The notes under the pieces are model-generated. The model saw nothing but the letters and a program-made list of their open reading frames with translations, did not search any database and was not told where the DNA came from. A stretch of DNA of 45,871 nt from Candidatus Gygaella obscura (GTDB taxonomy: Bacteria; Omnitrophota; Gorgyraeia; Gygaellales; Gygaellaceae): positions 1 to 45,871 of the forward strand of contig JAVCCR010000021.1 of the NCBI GenBank assembly GCA_030765485.1, written 5' to 3'. This document shows, one piece after another, positions 1 through 9,209 of the stretch (positions within the stretch are counted from its first letter, which is position 1; each line of letters starts with the position of its first letter). The translations under genes and the position numbers were made by a program.

Positions 1-652
1 CCTGAACAGCATTTTCATCTTTATAGACCTGTTTGCCAAGGCCAAGCATAGAGCCTTCCATGAGTAAACAGTCTATATCCTTAGGCGGTTTTGAAATCAT
101 CCTATCAAATAAAATGTTTTTTCTTCCGTGACCTCTGAAATCACCTGAATAGAATATTCTTTTACCTTCAGCTTCGATTAAGAAAGCCCGTGCATCAAAA
201 ACTGAATGATCTACCAAAAATGATTCAATCTTAAATTCCCCTACAGTAAAACTCTTTCCTTTATCAATCGTCTTTACATTAAACTTCCCTATTTTATGAG
301 GAATAAAAATATCCGAGATCTCAATTAGTATTTCAGCTCCTTTGCTCATATAAATAGGTATATCGGGATTTACAAACTTGAGGAACCCATAATGATCCAT
401 ATGGGAATGAGAAATAAGAATGCCATCTATGGATTTTTTTTCACCTATGTACAGACCCTTTATATCAGGAAGGATTTTTAGTTCTTTAAGCTCATCAAGA
501 GACTTGTTGATAAGTATTTTTGAATCAAAAGACTCTTTTTTATCATTTACAAGCGGCATCCCGAAATCGACAAGGATTCGAGACTTTGCGGTGCTTAATT
601 CAACACAGCTACCACCGATTTCTTTGGTGCCACGATGGATTGTTAATTTCAT
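1..652 (-). CDS. MBL-fold metallo-hydrolase, RNase J-like (partial, 3' end outside window)
   Basis: The reading frame starts at ATG 652 and runs off the left edge after 217 codons. The N-terminus (KEIGGSCVEL) is the first strand pair typical of RNase J/CPSF-like beta-lactamase-fold hydrolases. Metal-binding motif HSHMDH lies at residues 82-87, a further ligand candidate is His149, and SGDFRGHG holds the bridging Asp171. These fit a dinuclear-zinc hydrolase, probably a nuclease, though the beta-CASP and C-terminal parts cannot be seen. Its start overlaps the stop of the preceding nuclease-like gene (ATGA), so the two are translationally coupled. The substrate is unknown. There is no signal peptide, so a cytoplasmic role is inferred. 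Confidence 0.85.
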   Translation of the reverse strand, partial: MKLTIHRGTKEIGGSCVELSTAKSRILVDFGMPLVNDKKESFDSKILINKSLDELKELKILPDIKGLYIGEKKSIDGILISHSHMDHYGFLKFVNPDIPIYMSKGAEILIEISDIFIPHKIGKFNVKTIDKGKSFTVGEFKIESFLVDHSVFDARAFLIEAEGKRIFYSGDFRGHGRKNILFDRMISKPPKDIDCLLMEGSMLGLGKQVYKDENAVQ

Positions 653-1620
653 TGATTTCCGGTAAATGGATTTGATTCAAAAATAATCCGAGTTGAATTT
701 TTCTCTTCTGTATAATAGGCTACATATAGATTGATACGATCTTTACCAATCTGAAAAGATGAATTTTTCTGAAGCTCAGCAAACTCTTTTCTAAACTTAT
801 TTCCTTGGTCTGACGAAATAGCGACTACTGCTTCTATTTCAATGGATTTTGGTAATTGTCTTTTGAATCCAAAGAATTGATACCATTTCGCACCATTCTT
901 TGTATATCTAAATATTTTAAGAAGCGTAGCAGCGTAGATATAAACCTGAGAAGCAGGATGTCCATAAATGCCTGGCCTCTTTAATTCCCACATACAAAGC
1001 CTATCCTTGTTATCCTTTCCCTTATAGCGCGATAAGATATCGATATACCCATTACCTGATTTTGGTTCTTTGGCACTTGCTGAAATTGGAACCGGAATTT
1101 GCAAAGGAATACCACTAACAGTAACTGGTCTAATCTTTAAACCTTTGATTCCAAACTTATCGGATCCTTTCAACATTTCAACTATAAATTTAGATTCAAC
1201 GCGATGCTCAAGAATCCTAACTCCAGGTCGATAAGAACAACTCGCAGCCAATCTCTTAAAAAAAGATCTAAACTCTTTCCCTTCAGCGCTATGCCAAAAA
1301 TAATCCGCATCGTTTAATTTAAATCCCTTAAAGTACTTCTTATTACTTACGCTATGACCAGATAACCTAATTGCAATCTTACCATCTTTCAAAATCAATT
1401 GAGCGACCTCTTGACCAAAAAATCTCAAAGAAAAAATACATAATTTTGCTTTAGTAGTAGATATATAAATCCTAAGGTTTCCCCATTGATGAAATTTACT
1501 TCTCAAGAAAACCAAAGTCTCTCTATTGTTCTCAAATGATTCGAGCCAAATATTAAGCTTATTTTCAAAGATAAACTTGTTATCTTCCCAGATTTTATCT
1601 ATTTTTTTAGTTAAGTTCAT
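649..1620 (-). CDS. PD-(D/E)XK (RecB/Cas4-like) nuclease family protein, unnamed
   Basis: This protein has 323 residues from ATG 1620; an in-frame GTG at 1638 would add six. I prefer the ATG because the GTG lies inside a dyad motif repeated between other genes. The C-terminal half carries a convincing PD-(D/E)XK core: Glu143, then GYIDIL with Asp194, then ELK (Glu212, Lys214), then Q225-VYIY, the QxxxY motif of RecB-type nucleases. The N-terminal ~130 residues match nothing I know. It overlaps the downstream MBL-fold gene by four bases (ATGA), so the pair very probably acts together. Both partners look like nucleic-acid hydrolases, and the setting among SIR2 and HEPN genes suggests defence. 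Function is inferred from motifs only. Confidence 0.7.
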   Translation of the reverse strand: MNLTKKIDKIWEDNKFIFENKLNIWLESFENNRETLVFLRSKFHQWGNLRIYISTTKAKLCIFSLRFFGQEVAQLILKDGKIAIRLSGHSVSNKKYFKGFKLNDADYFWHSAEGKEFRSFFKRLAASCSYRPGVRILEHRVESKFIVEMLKGSDKFGIKGLKIRPVTVSGIPLQIPVPISASAKEPKSGNGYIDILSRYKGKDNKDRLCMWELKRPGIYGHPASQVYIYAATLLKIFRYTKNGAKWYQFFGFKRQLPKSIEIEAVVAISSDQGNKFRKEFAELQKNSSFQIGKDRINLYVAYYTEEKNSTRIIFESNPFTGNQ

Positions 1621-1814: not shown

Positions 1815-3068
1815 TTAACTTAATGGTGCTACATTCCTAAGAAAATTTCTAATTAAACACAGCTCTGATTTATCCAACCCATTCCAAGAACATTGAATTT
1901 TAATATACTGCACTTCATGCAAACCTTTTGCCTTAAAACTTGCCGCCAAACGTCCAGTTATTAATCTGGCTTCTTCAGATGTCATATTTACCGCCGTGCC
2001 ATTTATTCGAACTTTGTTAAAATCAAAATCACCTTCCTCACCAGGAAGCCCTAATGCTTTTAGATTTTCATCATGATAACCAAAACCAAGAAAATAAATT
2101 CGTTTCGCAGACTTTAAATGTTTTAGAAATTCTTCCTTTTGCCCTTTGACATTCGCCTCATCAAACGTCTGAATTTCTCTAATCACTTTATTAAATCTTT
2201 CTACTAAAAACTGCCTGTTTTTTTTCGAAAACACATCACTACCTTGTTCAAAATCTCTCCTTGACCAACCATATTCTATTTTTTCCCCAATCAGCTGATA
2301 AAAACACGCTATATCCCAAGGAATATAAGGTGCTGTTTCCAACATAAATTTTTCAGGCGATAAAGGTAAACCAGGTAATGAATTAATTTCTTCGTAAAAT
2401 TTTCCCAATCGGCCATATACATGCTTAATTTTAATTGAATTAAATACTTCCATTACTTCCTCTTCTTCAGCCTTGAAAAATGTTTTAATGGCTCTCATTA
2501 AATAATATTCCAGAGACCTGTCATAATTGAATGTAATAATAGTGACTTTATTGTTATGCAGATCCTTTATGTCTTTGCATCCTTTTATAAGATTATTCCA
2601 TAGGTATCGATACCAACCAAAATCAGGAAAATCTTTTTTTAGTTTATTTGGATATTTTGATGGTAAATATTGCCAAGAATTTTCATCCTCGTAACGGGAA
2701 ATACAGAAAATAATACATAGCTTTCCTATAAGACTGTATTGAGGATTCTTTTCAAGAAAAAAGTCTACGGAGGGGGGCTGCGCTTGGAATAAACGCTCCG
2801 CAAATTCTTTTATATCATCGGATGTATATTTTTGACCATCGTCTTTTTTATAATCTGATAATTCAAGAAAGCGTTCCAAAAGTTGAGAATTGGTTAAAAA
2901 ATCTCTCTTAGAGAATCTTTCTCCTGCCACATCAGAGATGCGCTTAACTCCTATTGACCTATCGAACACTAATCGATAAATATCTTTAATTAACTCCTGT
3001 CCTAAAGGAAAACCCAAATGGACATTTGCCCCGGCACCTAACACTAGAACTGTTTGTCTTTTAATCAT
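1815..3068 (-). CDS. SIR2-like NAD-binding domain protein, probable defence effector
   Basis: The 417-residue protein opens with VLVLGAGAN (7-15) and GFPLG, the nucleotide-binding start of SIR2-like domains. ITFNYDRSLE (178-187) is the conserved Asn-Tyr-Asp block, His216 in KHVYGRLG sits where the catalytic His is expected, and FLGFGYHDENL (326-336) is the closing Rossmann motif. Such SIR2-like proteins often deplete NAD during phage defence; this is family knowledge. A strong GGAGG precedes the ATG. No second domain is recognisable. A dyad motif lies about 70 bp upstream of the start and a gene for a membrane protein lies before it. Whether the two cooperate is not known. Confidence 0.75.
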   Translation of the reverse strand: MIKRQTVLVLGAGANVHLGFPLGQELIKDIYRLVFDRSIGVKRISDVAGERFSKRDFLTNSQLLERFLELSDYKKDDGQKYTSDDIKEFAERLFQAQPPSVDFFLEKNPQYSLIGKLCIIFCISRYEDENSWQYLPSKYPNKLKKDFPDFGWYRYLWNNLIKGCKDIKDLHNNKVTIITFNYDRSLEYYLMRAIKTFFKAEEEEVMEVFNSIKIKHVYGRLGKFYEEINSLPGLPLSPEKFMLETAPYIPWDIACFYQLIGEKIEYGWSRRDFEQGSDVFSKKNRQFLVERFNKVIREIQTFDEANVKGQKEEFLKHLKSAKRIYFLGFGYHDENLKALGLPGEEGDFDFNKVRINGTAVNMTSEEARLITGRLAASFKAKGLHEVQYIKIQCSWNGLDKSELCLIRNFLRNVAPLS

Positions 3069-5824: not shown

Positions 5825-6901
5825 TCACCTATGGTTAAAATATTTTATTATTACTTTTTCAAAATCCATCTCTTCACGAATCCTCTCTGCTAGCGACTTT
5901 CGACCACGCCTCTTTTTTTTAATGCCTGTTTTTGAAAGCTGTTCTATCAGAGCAACTTTATATATTAACGGAGCAACTGTTAGAAGATGTGGTATAGATT
6001 TATTCCCAAAAGGATATATATGCTTATCGGCAATTGGGTTGCCATGTAAAAAAGCATTTCTTGAATCATATAGTTGACAATAAAGTTTTTGGATAAGATT
6101 TATTGACTTTTCGCCTAACCTGTACCGTTTTTGTTTAAGCTCTGGCTTTGAAAACGAACGTTGTCCTAATAGCATTAGCACAGCATCAAGATTTGCTTTA
6201 CCACTACGTCCAGGATGAACCAAAACCTCAAATGCACTTACCCAAAGCCCTATTCTAGAACCAATATCAAATTCAGAAAAATGATTGCTAAAAAATATCT
6301 CTGAAGCTTGATACGCCATCTGTAAACTCCTAAAAATTGCTCGTGCTTTCCATGATCTTTTTTTTGGATTCTTTTTCCATAACCGAAACAACAAATCTAA
6401 CGTGCTATCTTCTATTGTAGCAGTCCTAAAAACAGTATGCGTTAGAGGGTTAACTTGCCCCCTAAATTTATCTGGATCATTATATCCATCTAAAACAATA
6501 GGAGTATGTACAGTCAAATGTTGACCATCTTTGTCCGGAGTAATTGGATAAAAATCAAAAAAATCAGAAAATAATGGTTCAAACTTTTGTCCTCTAAGTA
6601 TACTATTAGAAGATCCTTCGATAATAGCACAAATTGCAATAGCGTTTCGGAAATCTGTTATTACTTCAATTTTTCTGTAAAACGTCGGAGCTTTGTCATT
6701 TAAGATAATCGCACAAGGATGAACTACTTTATCAAATTGGTTAGAAAATTTCGTAAGTAGAGCTTTGGAAGCAAGACTCTCCTCTTTTATTTTAACTAAT
6801 CTACTATCACAGGATGGGACTAAAGCAAACTTATCAAATTCGATAGGATCTTTAATCTGTAAATTAGGAACAACAAATATTAACTTCCAACCATTATCCA
6901 T
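5825..6901 (-). CDS. HEPN-type protein with RX4H motif
   Basis: The 358-residue protein ends in an all-helical region containing FEVLVHPGRSGKANLD and LYDSRNAFLHGN. In the latter, Arg281 and His286 form the RX4H motif of HEPN domains, many of which are metal-independent RNases in toxin and abortive-infection systems. The N-terminal ~180 residues are mixed alpha/beta and unrecognised. This architecture (unknown N-terminal domain plus C-terminal HEPN) is frequent in island genes. A lysine/arginine-rich tail (KKKRRGRKS) follows. No partner nucleotidyltransferase gene is adjacent. Assignment as an RNase is inference from the motif. Confidence 0.6.
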   Translation of the reverse strand: MDNGWKLIFVVPNLQIKDPIEFDKFALVPSCDSRLVKIKEESLASKALLTKFSNQFDKVVHPCAIILNDKAPTFYRKIEVITDFRNAIAICAIIEGSSNSILRGQKFEPLFSDFFDFYPITPDKDGQHLTVHTPIVLDGYNDPDKFRGQVNPLTHTVFRTATIEDSTLDLLFRLWKKNPKKRSWKARAIFRSLQMAYQASEIFFSNHFSEFDIGSRIGLWVSAFEVLVHPGRSGKANLDAVLMLLGQRSFSKPELKQKRYRLGEKSINLIQKLYCQLYDSRNAFLHGNPIADKHIYPFGNKSIPHLLTVAPLIYKVALIEQLSKTGIKKKRRGRKSLAERIREEMDFEKVIIKYFNHR

Positions 6902-7415: not shown

Positions 7416-7582
7416 AGTGCCTAATTAGTGCCAACAATTGATCAAAATTGGTAGTAATTGAGCGTAATTGGTAGTAATAGCCTCATTGGCAGGGTAAACA
7501 AAAAACCCGCATATCTCGTCGATATACGGGCTTTATCTGGTTGCGGGGCTCAGATTTGAACTGAGGACCTCAAGGTTATGAG
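7416..7582. repeat. Direct repeat copy B, overlapping intact tRNA-fMet (putative att site)
   Basis: These 167 bp are near-identical to 4378-4543. The copy includes the 3' part of the functional tRNA (7538-7582), its terminator and about 80 bp downstream. Together the two copies bound a 2.9 kb segment whose tRNA-proximal side is this one, the arrangement left by site-specific insertion into a tRNA 3' end or by recombination between two such insertions. Confidence 0.85.
7495..7530 (-). terminator. Rho-independent terminator after tRNA-fMet
   Basis: A stem CCCG/CGGG plus ATATC/GATAT with one internal C-A mismatch and a five-base loop is followed on the minus strand by TTTTTTGTTT. It ends the eno-ftsB-tRNA-fMet transcript. 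Confidence 0.8.
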
Positions 7583-7614
7583 CCTTGCGAGCTACCTGGC
7601 TGCTCCACCCCGCG
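7538..7614 (-). tRNA. tRNA-fMet (CAT), initiator
   Basis: A 77-nt cloverleaf with encoded CCA. The 5' C1 faces A72, the unpaired first position that marks bacterial initiator tRNAs; the rest of the acceptor is GCGGGG/CCCCGC. Anticodon loop CTCATAA and T-loop TTCAAAT are normal. The 5' end lies one base after the ftsB stop codon, so the tRNA must be cut from the eno-ftsB messenger. It is the insertion site of the neighbouring element. Confidence 0.95.
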
Positions 7615-7615
7615 A

Positions 7616-9209
<1,594 letters not shown>

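Follow-up and report, generated by a model that had tools for sequence, protein, structure and literature searches.

Gene layout of the locus

The first two genes of an Omnitrophota contig encode a predicted PD-(D/E)XK nuclease and a beta-CASP MBL protein, and the question raised by this locus is whether two hydrolases of different folds form a functional unit and, if so, what that unit might do. The window, meaning the whole stretch of DNA analyzed here (45,871 nucleotides), is an entire contig of the 1.38-Mb MAG of Candidatus Gygaella obscura, so the contig end truncates the MBL gene; the C-terminal half of the MBL was searched for in the rest of the assembly and was not found. Both genes lie on the minus strand, with the nuclease transcribed before the MBL. 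The features of the pair are as follows.

649..1620, minus strand: PD-(D/E)XK nuclease CDS, partner family F0; 323 aa, with ATG at 1620 and TGA at 649
2..652, minus strand: beta-CASP MBL CDS (RNase J/EF2904-like); 5' 217 codons, the rest beyond the contig end
649..652, minus strand: ATGA overlap of the nuclease stop and the MBL start
1240..1620, minus strand: N-terminal part of the nuclease, residues 1-127 (AlphaFold model, F0 alignment, F0/F1 profile)
703..1212, minus strand: PD-(D/E)XK core region, approximately residues 137-306 (secondary-structure order and fold matches)
1207..1209, minus strand: codon of invariant E138, the acidic residue of the first helix (49/49)
1039..1041, minus strand: codon of invariant D194, the D of PD-(D/E)XK (49/49)
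979..987, minus strand: codons of E212-L-K214, the ExK motif (E212 and K214 in 49/49)
392..409, minus strand: MBL motif 2, HSHMDH, residues 82-87, zinc ligands (motif conservation)
206..208, minus strand: MBL motif 3, His149 (motif conservation)
140..142, minus strand: MBL motif 4, Asp171 (motif conservation)

An in-frame GTG at 1638 provides an alternative start for the nuclease, which would then have 329 aa. The ATGA overlap had been described in an earlier note on this DNA and is indeed present. The same note placed the pair in an island with SIR2 and HEPN genes, and here the outcome is mixed. The SIR2 assignment holds weakly, as the divergent protein encoded by the neighbor at 1815-3068 has a weak PADLOC SIR2 match (E 4e-6). 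The HEPN assignment comes down to an R-x4-H motif (RNAFLH) recognized by eye in the protein encoded at 5825-6901, which has no match to any family in Pfam or PADLOC or to any solved structure.

The nuclease family

No family model in Pfam, PADLOC or NCBIfam matches the window nuclease, and the alignment of 49 relatives, designated F0, gives only scattered chance matches against Pfam; the SduA_C domain (PF14082) is absent from all 49 members in that search. The AlphaFold model of the 323-aa protein (mean pLDDT 91.5, pTM 0.90) contains a core made up of a helix at 137-150, strands at 171-182, 185-200 and 206-213, a second helix at 222-239 and a final strand at 261-269. This alpha-beta-beta-beta-alpha-beta arrangement is the PD-(D/E)XK order, and all 49 F0 sequences share the residues E138, D194, E212, K214 and Q225 without exception. 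Fold searches with the model return no strong match, the best E values being 0.018 in the PDB and 8.6e-4 among viral proteins, and many of the weak PDB matches are PD-(D/E)XK enzymes, namely Exo5, HamA, EcoO109I, ACE1, Can2, EndoMS, MunI, FokI and Card1. Viral PD-(D/E)XK proteins likewise occur among the weak viral matches. By motif, model topology and the identity of these weak matches, F0 is a member of the PD-(D/E)XK superfamily, with predicted nuclease activity.

The N-terminal part of the protein combines helices with a small beta sheet; R66, G69 and Q70 are conserved in it, and it possibly has a role in recognition. In one Planctomycetota MAG (L051:1817-3178), an apparent fragment of a group II intron reverse transcriptase, recognized by eye, lies upstream of the nuclease and in the same frame.

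The MBL family

The window MBL matches Pfam Lactamase_B_2 (E 1e-14), and its best relatives in the PDB are EF2904 (2az4), followed by RNase J. Full-length relatives have approximately 430 aa and contain both the Lactamase_B_2 and RMMBL domains, and EF2904 (E 1e-44) and RNase J (E 4e-35) are both found with a profile of the family. The HxHxDH motif, the motif 3 histidine and the motif 4 aspartate (window residues 82-87, 149 and 171) are conserved in 38-39 of 39 MBLs. The beta-CASP motifs A, B and C lie beyond the contig end in the window protein and were scored in its full-length relatives, at least 36 of 39 of which have them as D260, H383 and H405. A histidine at motif C marks the RNA-type version of beta-CASP MBLs. 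Because of this histidine, and because the RMMBL domain (the "RNA specificity domain" of Pfam) is found in 36 of the 39 MBLs, RNA is a more probable substrate than DNA. Motifs, model topology, and Pfam and PDB matches thus bear out the two folds, PD-(D/E)XK and RNase J-like MBL, originally proposed for these hydrolases.

The MBL is not a housekeeping RNase J, an identification that was considered and rejected. The 217 visible residues of the window protein score 49.3 bits against the NCBIfam RNase J model, which has a cut-off of 400. In five of the nine genomes checked there is also a separate gene for an RNase J-like protein (open frame, 557-577 residues). Four of these five proteins were placed in the MBL tree, where they group in a fully supported clade of their own, apart from the module MBLs. 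One MBL copy (L115) has an internal stop and seems to be decaying.

Pairing of the two genes

Homologues of the F0 nuclease are found in eight of 384 Omnitrophota genomes and, more widely, on 50 genome contigs that include Bacillota, Bacteroidota, Chloroflexota, Desulfobacterota, Actinomycetota, Acidobacteriota, Planctomycetota and Neomarinimicrobiota. These homologues make up 53 distinct loci in about nine phyla. The MBL gene is directly adjacent in 35 of them, lying downstream of the nuclease in 28 and upstream in seven. It is fused to the nuclease in two more, once as nuclease-MBL in a single open reading frame (L029) and once in the reversed order, with a frameshift (L058). In one locus (L022), an apparently decaying copy, the intact nuclease gene is followed by the remnant of an MBL; nine have an MBL within 5 kb that is not adjacent, four have none (L019, L023, L031 and L049, two of them near contig ends), and two are cut by contig ends such that the presence of an MBL cannot be judged. 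The neighborhood comparison suggested in the earlier note, which looked for pairing across phyla, thus gives 37 adjacent or fused cases in 53 loci, and the possibility it raised that the pair is confined to this Omnitrophota lineage does not hold.

The association is not obligatory. A search of the whole genome that contains L023 (G394) finds the F0 nuclease without any MBL, and four MBL genes (L101, L107, L114 and L127) have no recognizable PD-(D/E)XK neighbor. Conservation of the pair across loci nevertheless excludes chance adjacency, and we regard the existence of a two-gene module as nearly certain. An annotation or assembly artefact, or the accidental proximity of a nuclease to a housekeeping RNase J, would have in its favor the truncation at the contig end and nothing else; given that the pair recurs in many phyla, in independent assemblies and on complete plasmids, and that a separate RNase J exists in genomes that were checked and falls in a separate, fully supported clade, the probability of such an explanation is negligible.

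Exchange of partners beside the MBL

The MBL is about five times more common in Omnitrophota than the F0 nuclease, occurring in 40 of the 384 genomes rather than eight. In 24 of 31 further Omnitrophota MBL loci, the gene directly upstream encodes another protein with a D...ExK motif, and these upstream genes mostly overlap the MBL gene by 1 to 13 bases. The motif is present in 45 of 89 MBL-adjacent genes outside F0 and in 43 of 652 control open reading frames (odds ratio 14.5, Fisher p 3e-23), a comparison in which the pattern was written after examples had been seen and in which some of the controls are themselves unrecognized partners. Beyond what the earlier note captured, the pairing is not fixed, and elsewhere the MBL pairs with other PD-(D/E)XK families. 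Clustering by similarity groups the partners into F0 (33), F1 (29), F2 (9), F3 (3), F4 (2) and F5 (2), along with singletons, so that MBLs of the same family adjoin at least five PD-(D/E)XK-like families besides F0, although some of the profile links between families are weak and the count of independent families is uncertain.

The profile alignment of F0 with F1 ("YYRG") spans 152 columns (91% probability) and takes in the N-terminal part, in which F0 residues 1-127 can be aligned with the corresponding part of F1; the other links are weaker. Several partners have sub-threshold Pfam matches to SduA_C, PDDEXK_9, HSDR_N_2, NucS_C and NERD, with SduA_C at E 0.012 in F1. The model of an F1 member is of moderate quality (pLDDT 64.7), and its best fold matches, all weak, are the Shedu, Can2, Card1, R2, McrC and Cdn1 nucleases, the nuclease domain of Shedu being at the top.

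When 77 MBLs are placed in a quick, unbootstrapped tree, the partner label changes approximately 32 times, the least possible number being 12. The boundaries of exchange can be located in closely related loci. L121 and L124 have syntenic flanks with 80-82% identical DNA, and their MBLs are 84% identical in DNA and 90% in protein; the partner genes are unrelated, with homology resuming at base +12 of the MBL gene. Between L009 and either L097 or L131, and between L099 and L102, homology begins at the MBL start codon. The MBL is the constant part of the module and the PD-(D/E)XK gene the interchangeable part. One alternative in the earlier note was a housekeeping RNase J whose neighbor varies, and this description is half right: the neighbor does vary, within PD-(D/E)XK-like proteins, but the MBL is not a housekeeping enzyme.

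In some loci, several PD-(D/E)XK genes are grouped with a single MBL. There are two or three different ones in the Bacteroidota loci L045, L063 and L065, and L123 has a similar group in which one gene is degenerate. These arrangements look like a reserve of cassettes.

Distribution and genomic context

The occurrence of the MBL is patchy, at three of 198 Bacteroidota, four of 198 Desulfobacterota, nine of 199 Planctomycetota and six of 200 Bacillota genomes, with an overall range of 1.5-10% of genomes per sampled phylum. Ten plasmids, mostly alphaproteobacterial, carry an MBL copy, and there are module copies on IMG/VR contigs, while most lie on chromosomal or unassigned genome contigs. Cultured relatives with an intact module include Geomonas propionica Red259 (L025), Parabacteroides PFB2-10 (L032) and Cereibacter azotoformans, in which it is on a plasmid (L142). 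The window nuclease itself has no match in the plasmid and phage collections and, as a single sequence, none in the viral contigs; the nuclease alignment finds one match in the latter, beside BREX. Phage records yield only two weak matches among 50,697, and in L015 there is a terminase-like gene near the pair.

Some copies have defence-related neighbors. In L066, an MBL copy lies directly before brxA-brxB-brxC-pglX, and other MBL copies adjoin restriction genes of type I or type II, or a gene for SIR2 or for a Lamassu/Septu-like ATPase. In the Omnitrophota sample, PADLOC gave 176 model matches for 89 random neighbors and 62 for 89 other genes, figures that come mostly from redundant methyltransferase models and are not per-protein counts. 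The same 817-aa LmuB/PtuA-like ATPase is encoded near the pair in two Omnitrophota genera (L009:3744-6197 and L011:8004-10457).

Several other genes are found beside the pair. A gene for a calcineurin-like phosphoesterase is near the MBL gene, often directly after it, in 14 Bacteroidota loci (L029, L031, L032, L034, L036, L039, L042, L044, L045, L048, L054, L060, L062 and L063) and follows the MBL on the alphaproteobacterial plasmid L142; it is a possible optional third member of the module. In Bacteroidota, the pair repeatedly has a gene for a WYL-domain regulator nearby (L033, L034, L036, L039, L044, L045, L049, L052, L060-L063 and L065), and one is present on the Butyrivibrio plasmid L145. 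In L020, a T4 RNA ligase 1-like gene (7509-8600; PDB 2c5u, E 2.6e-8) begins 15 bases after the MBL. In L098 (1723-7232), a RecQ-like helicase with a phosphoribosyltransferase domain, a DprA-like protein, a PD-(D/E)XK protein and the MBL are encoded in one direction with little spacing. A small protein of approximately 125-200 aa with "GIFW...PRGRV"-like motifs is encoded beside the MBL on the plasmids L140, L141, L143 and L148 and in L025 (4555-5163); the L141 copy has no Pfam match.

Relation to known systems

Pairs of an MBL-fold nuclease gene with a second gene have been described before. In the trypsin-MBL (HamM-type) nuclease-protease pairs, a trypsin-like protease partner, fused to a defence enzyme, activates a ComEC-like MBL by cleavage, and the MBL, which has been recurrently acquired, joins existing defence systems (PMC12799240). 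The present module was compared with that one and the identification rejected: its MBL is beta-CASP/RNase J-like, with EF2904 and RNase J as closest relatives, and its partners are PD-(D/E)XK-like proteins. Shedu (SduA) also combines a PD-(D/E)XK core with variable additional domains and is the weak top fold match of F1, but it is a single gene without an MBL, and F0 has no SduA_C match. Restriction-modification systems, sometimes adjacent to the module, resemble it in having PD-(D/E)XK nucleases of changing specificity; here, however, no methyltransferase is part of the module, and the constant partner is an MBL nuclease.

On the MBL side, RNase J1/J2 share the beta-CASP MBL fold, the RMMBL domain and the motif C histidine, but have approximately 560 aa compared to approximately 430 and fall in a separate clade. 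Cas14 of type VII CRISPR-Cas is likewise a beta-CASP MBL effector, and was rejected as an identification for the window MBL, whose 217 visible residues score 42.3 bits against an NCBIfam cut-off of 800; no cas7 or cas5 gene was noticed beside the pair. The closest solved relative, EF2904 of Enterococcus faecalis, is an uncharacterized protein. A full-text search of open-licence papers found other mentions of MBLs and no description of this nuclease-MBL pair, in keeping with the earlier note, which knew of no named system with exactly this pairing. While both folds are known, the composition of the module and the rule of swapping the cutter appear to be undescribed.

Possible function of the module

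Pairing, partner exchange, natural fusions and preserved active sites in both enzymes are evident at the level of sequence. The context counted in favor of defence comprises the patchy occurrence, the plasmid copies, the BREX and restriction neighbors and the WYL regulators, and suggests that a role against phages or plasmids is fairly probable. The complete explanation that we favor, in which a constant beta-CASP MBL and an exchangeable PD-(D/E)XK nuclease make up a mobile cut-and-degrade defence module, is plausible at a level just short of even. The MBL and its partner would act together, probably as a complex. The partner, via its variable non-catalytic parts, would recognize some feature of the nucleic acid of an invading phage or plasmid and cut that nucleic acid, leaving a 5'-phosphate end, and the constant MBL would degrade 5'-to-3' from any such cut. 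Partners may be swapped because targets escape.

PD-(D/E)XK enzymes leave 5'-phosphate ends, and RNase J-type beta-CASP enzymes need a 5'-phosphate end for 5'-to-3' degradation. This logic is general to both enzyme classes and not particular to these proteins; common 5'-phosphate ends would explain how any PD-(D/E)XK partner could be used with the same MBL. Can2-like enzymes cut RNA, but most PD-(D/E)XK enzymes prefer DNA, and the predicted RNA preference of the MBL therefore fits uneasily unless the partner also cuts RNA. The order of events, cutting followed by chewing, is a tentative part of the explanation. More speculative again is a general immune platform, in which one RNase J-like beta-CASP degradation engine would serve many PD-(D/E)XK "specificity nucleases" replaced in situ at the start codon of the MBL, perhaps as other systems renew their specificity subunits.

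The strongest competing reading is a pairing of sensor and toxin, of the abortive infection or toxin-antitoxin type, in which the PD-(D/E)XK protein binds a trigger and either holds the MBL inactive or activates it, and the freed MBL degrades cellular RNA such that growth stops. The usual upstream position and tight overlap of the partner, as with an antitoxin or sensor gene, would fit this arrangement, as would the WYL regulators, and a constant MBL with a variable partner is the pattern expected for one effector with many sensors. However, a pure sensor would not need the catalytic residues that F0 keeps in 49 of 49 sequences, or the D...ExK motif that recurs in other partners. The gene order is also free, being reversed in seven F0 loci, and MBL-only loci exist. 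It is an unlikely competitor to cut-and-degrade defence.

A role in RNA processing or repair, in which damaged RNA would be trimmed or recycled by the pair, at times together with a phosphoesterase or RNA ligase, comes next and is distinctly unlikely. It is consistent with the RNA-type motif C and the RMMBL domain, and the phosphoesterase genes in 14 Bacteroidota loci and the ligase-like gene in L020 speak for it a little, but neither companion is general. The module is rare and patchy even inside one phylum, its partner has been replaced many times, which would be unusual for a conserved processing role, and plasmid copies and BREX and restriction neighbors also argue against it. Alternatively, the genes may belong to plasmids or prophages and serve to attack rival elements or host defences. 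Copies on plasmids, on IMG/VR contigs and near a terminase-like gene point in that direction; nonetheless, most copies are chromosomal or on unassigned genome contigs, the phage records yield almost nothing, and carriage as cargo on mobile elements is also normal for host defence systems. This last reading is improbable.

Implications

The comparisons of genes and neighborhoods made here suggest a modular two-nuclease system that probably acts in defence against phages or plasmids. As the two compact enzymes are encoded side by side, two purified proteins and two point mutants would suffice to test the cut-then-chew prediction. Searching beside the MBL also offers a route to new PD-(D/E)XK nucleases. 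If the proposed explanation is true, uncharacterized RNase J-like proteins of the EF2904 kind would gain a candidate role, and the pair would represent a widespread two-nuclease defence module with an organizing rule, "keep the engine, swap the cutter," that has so far gone undescribed.
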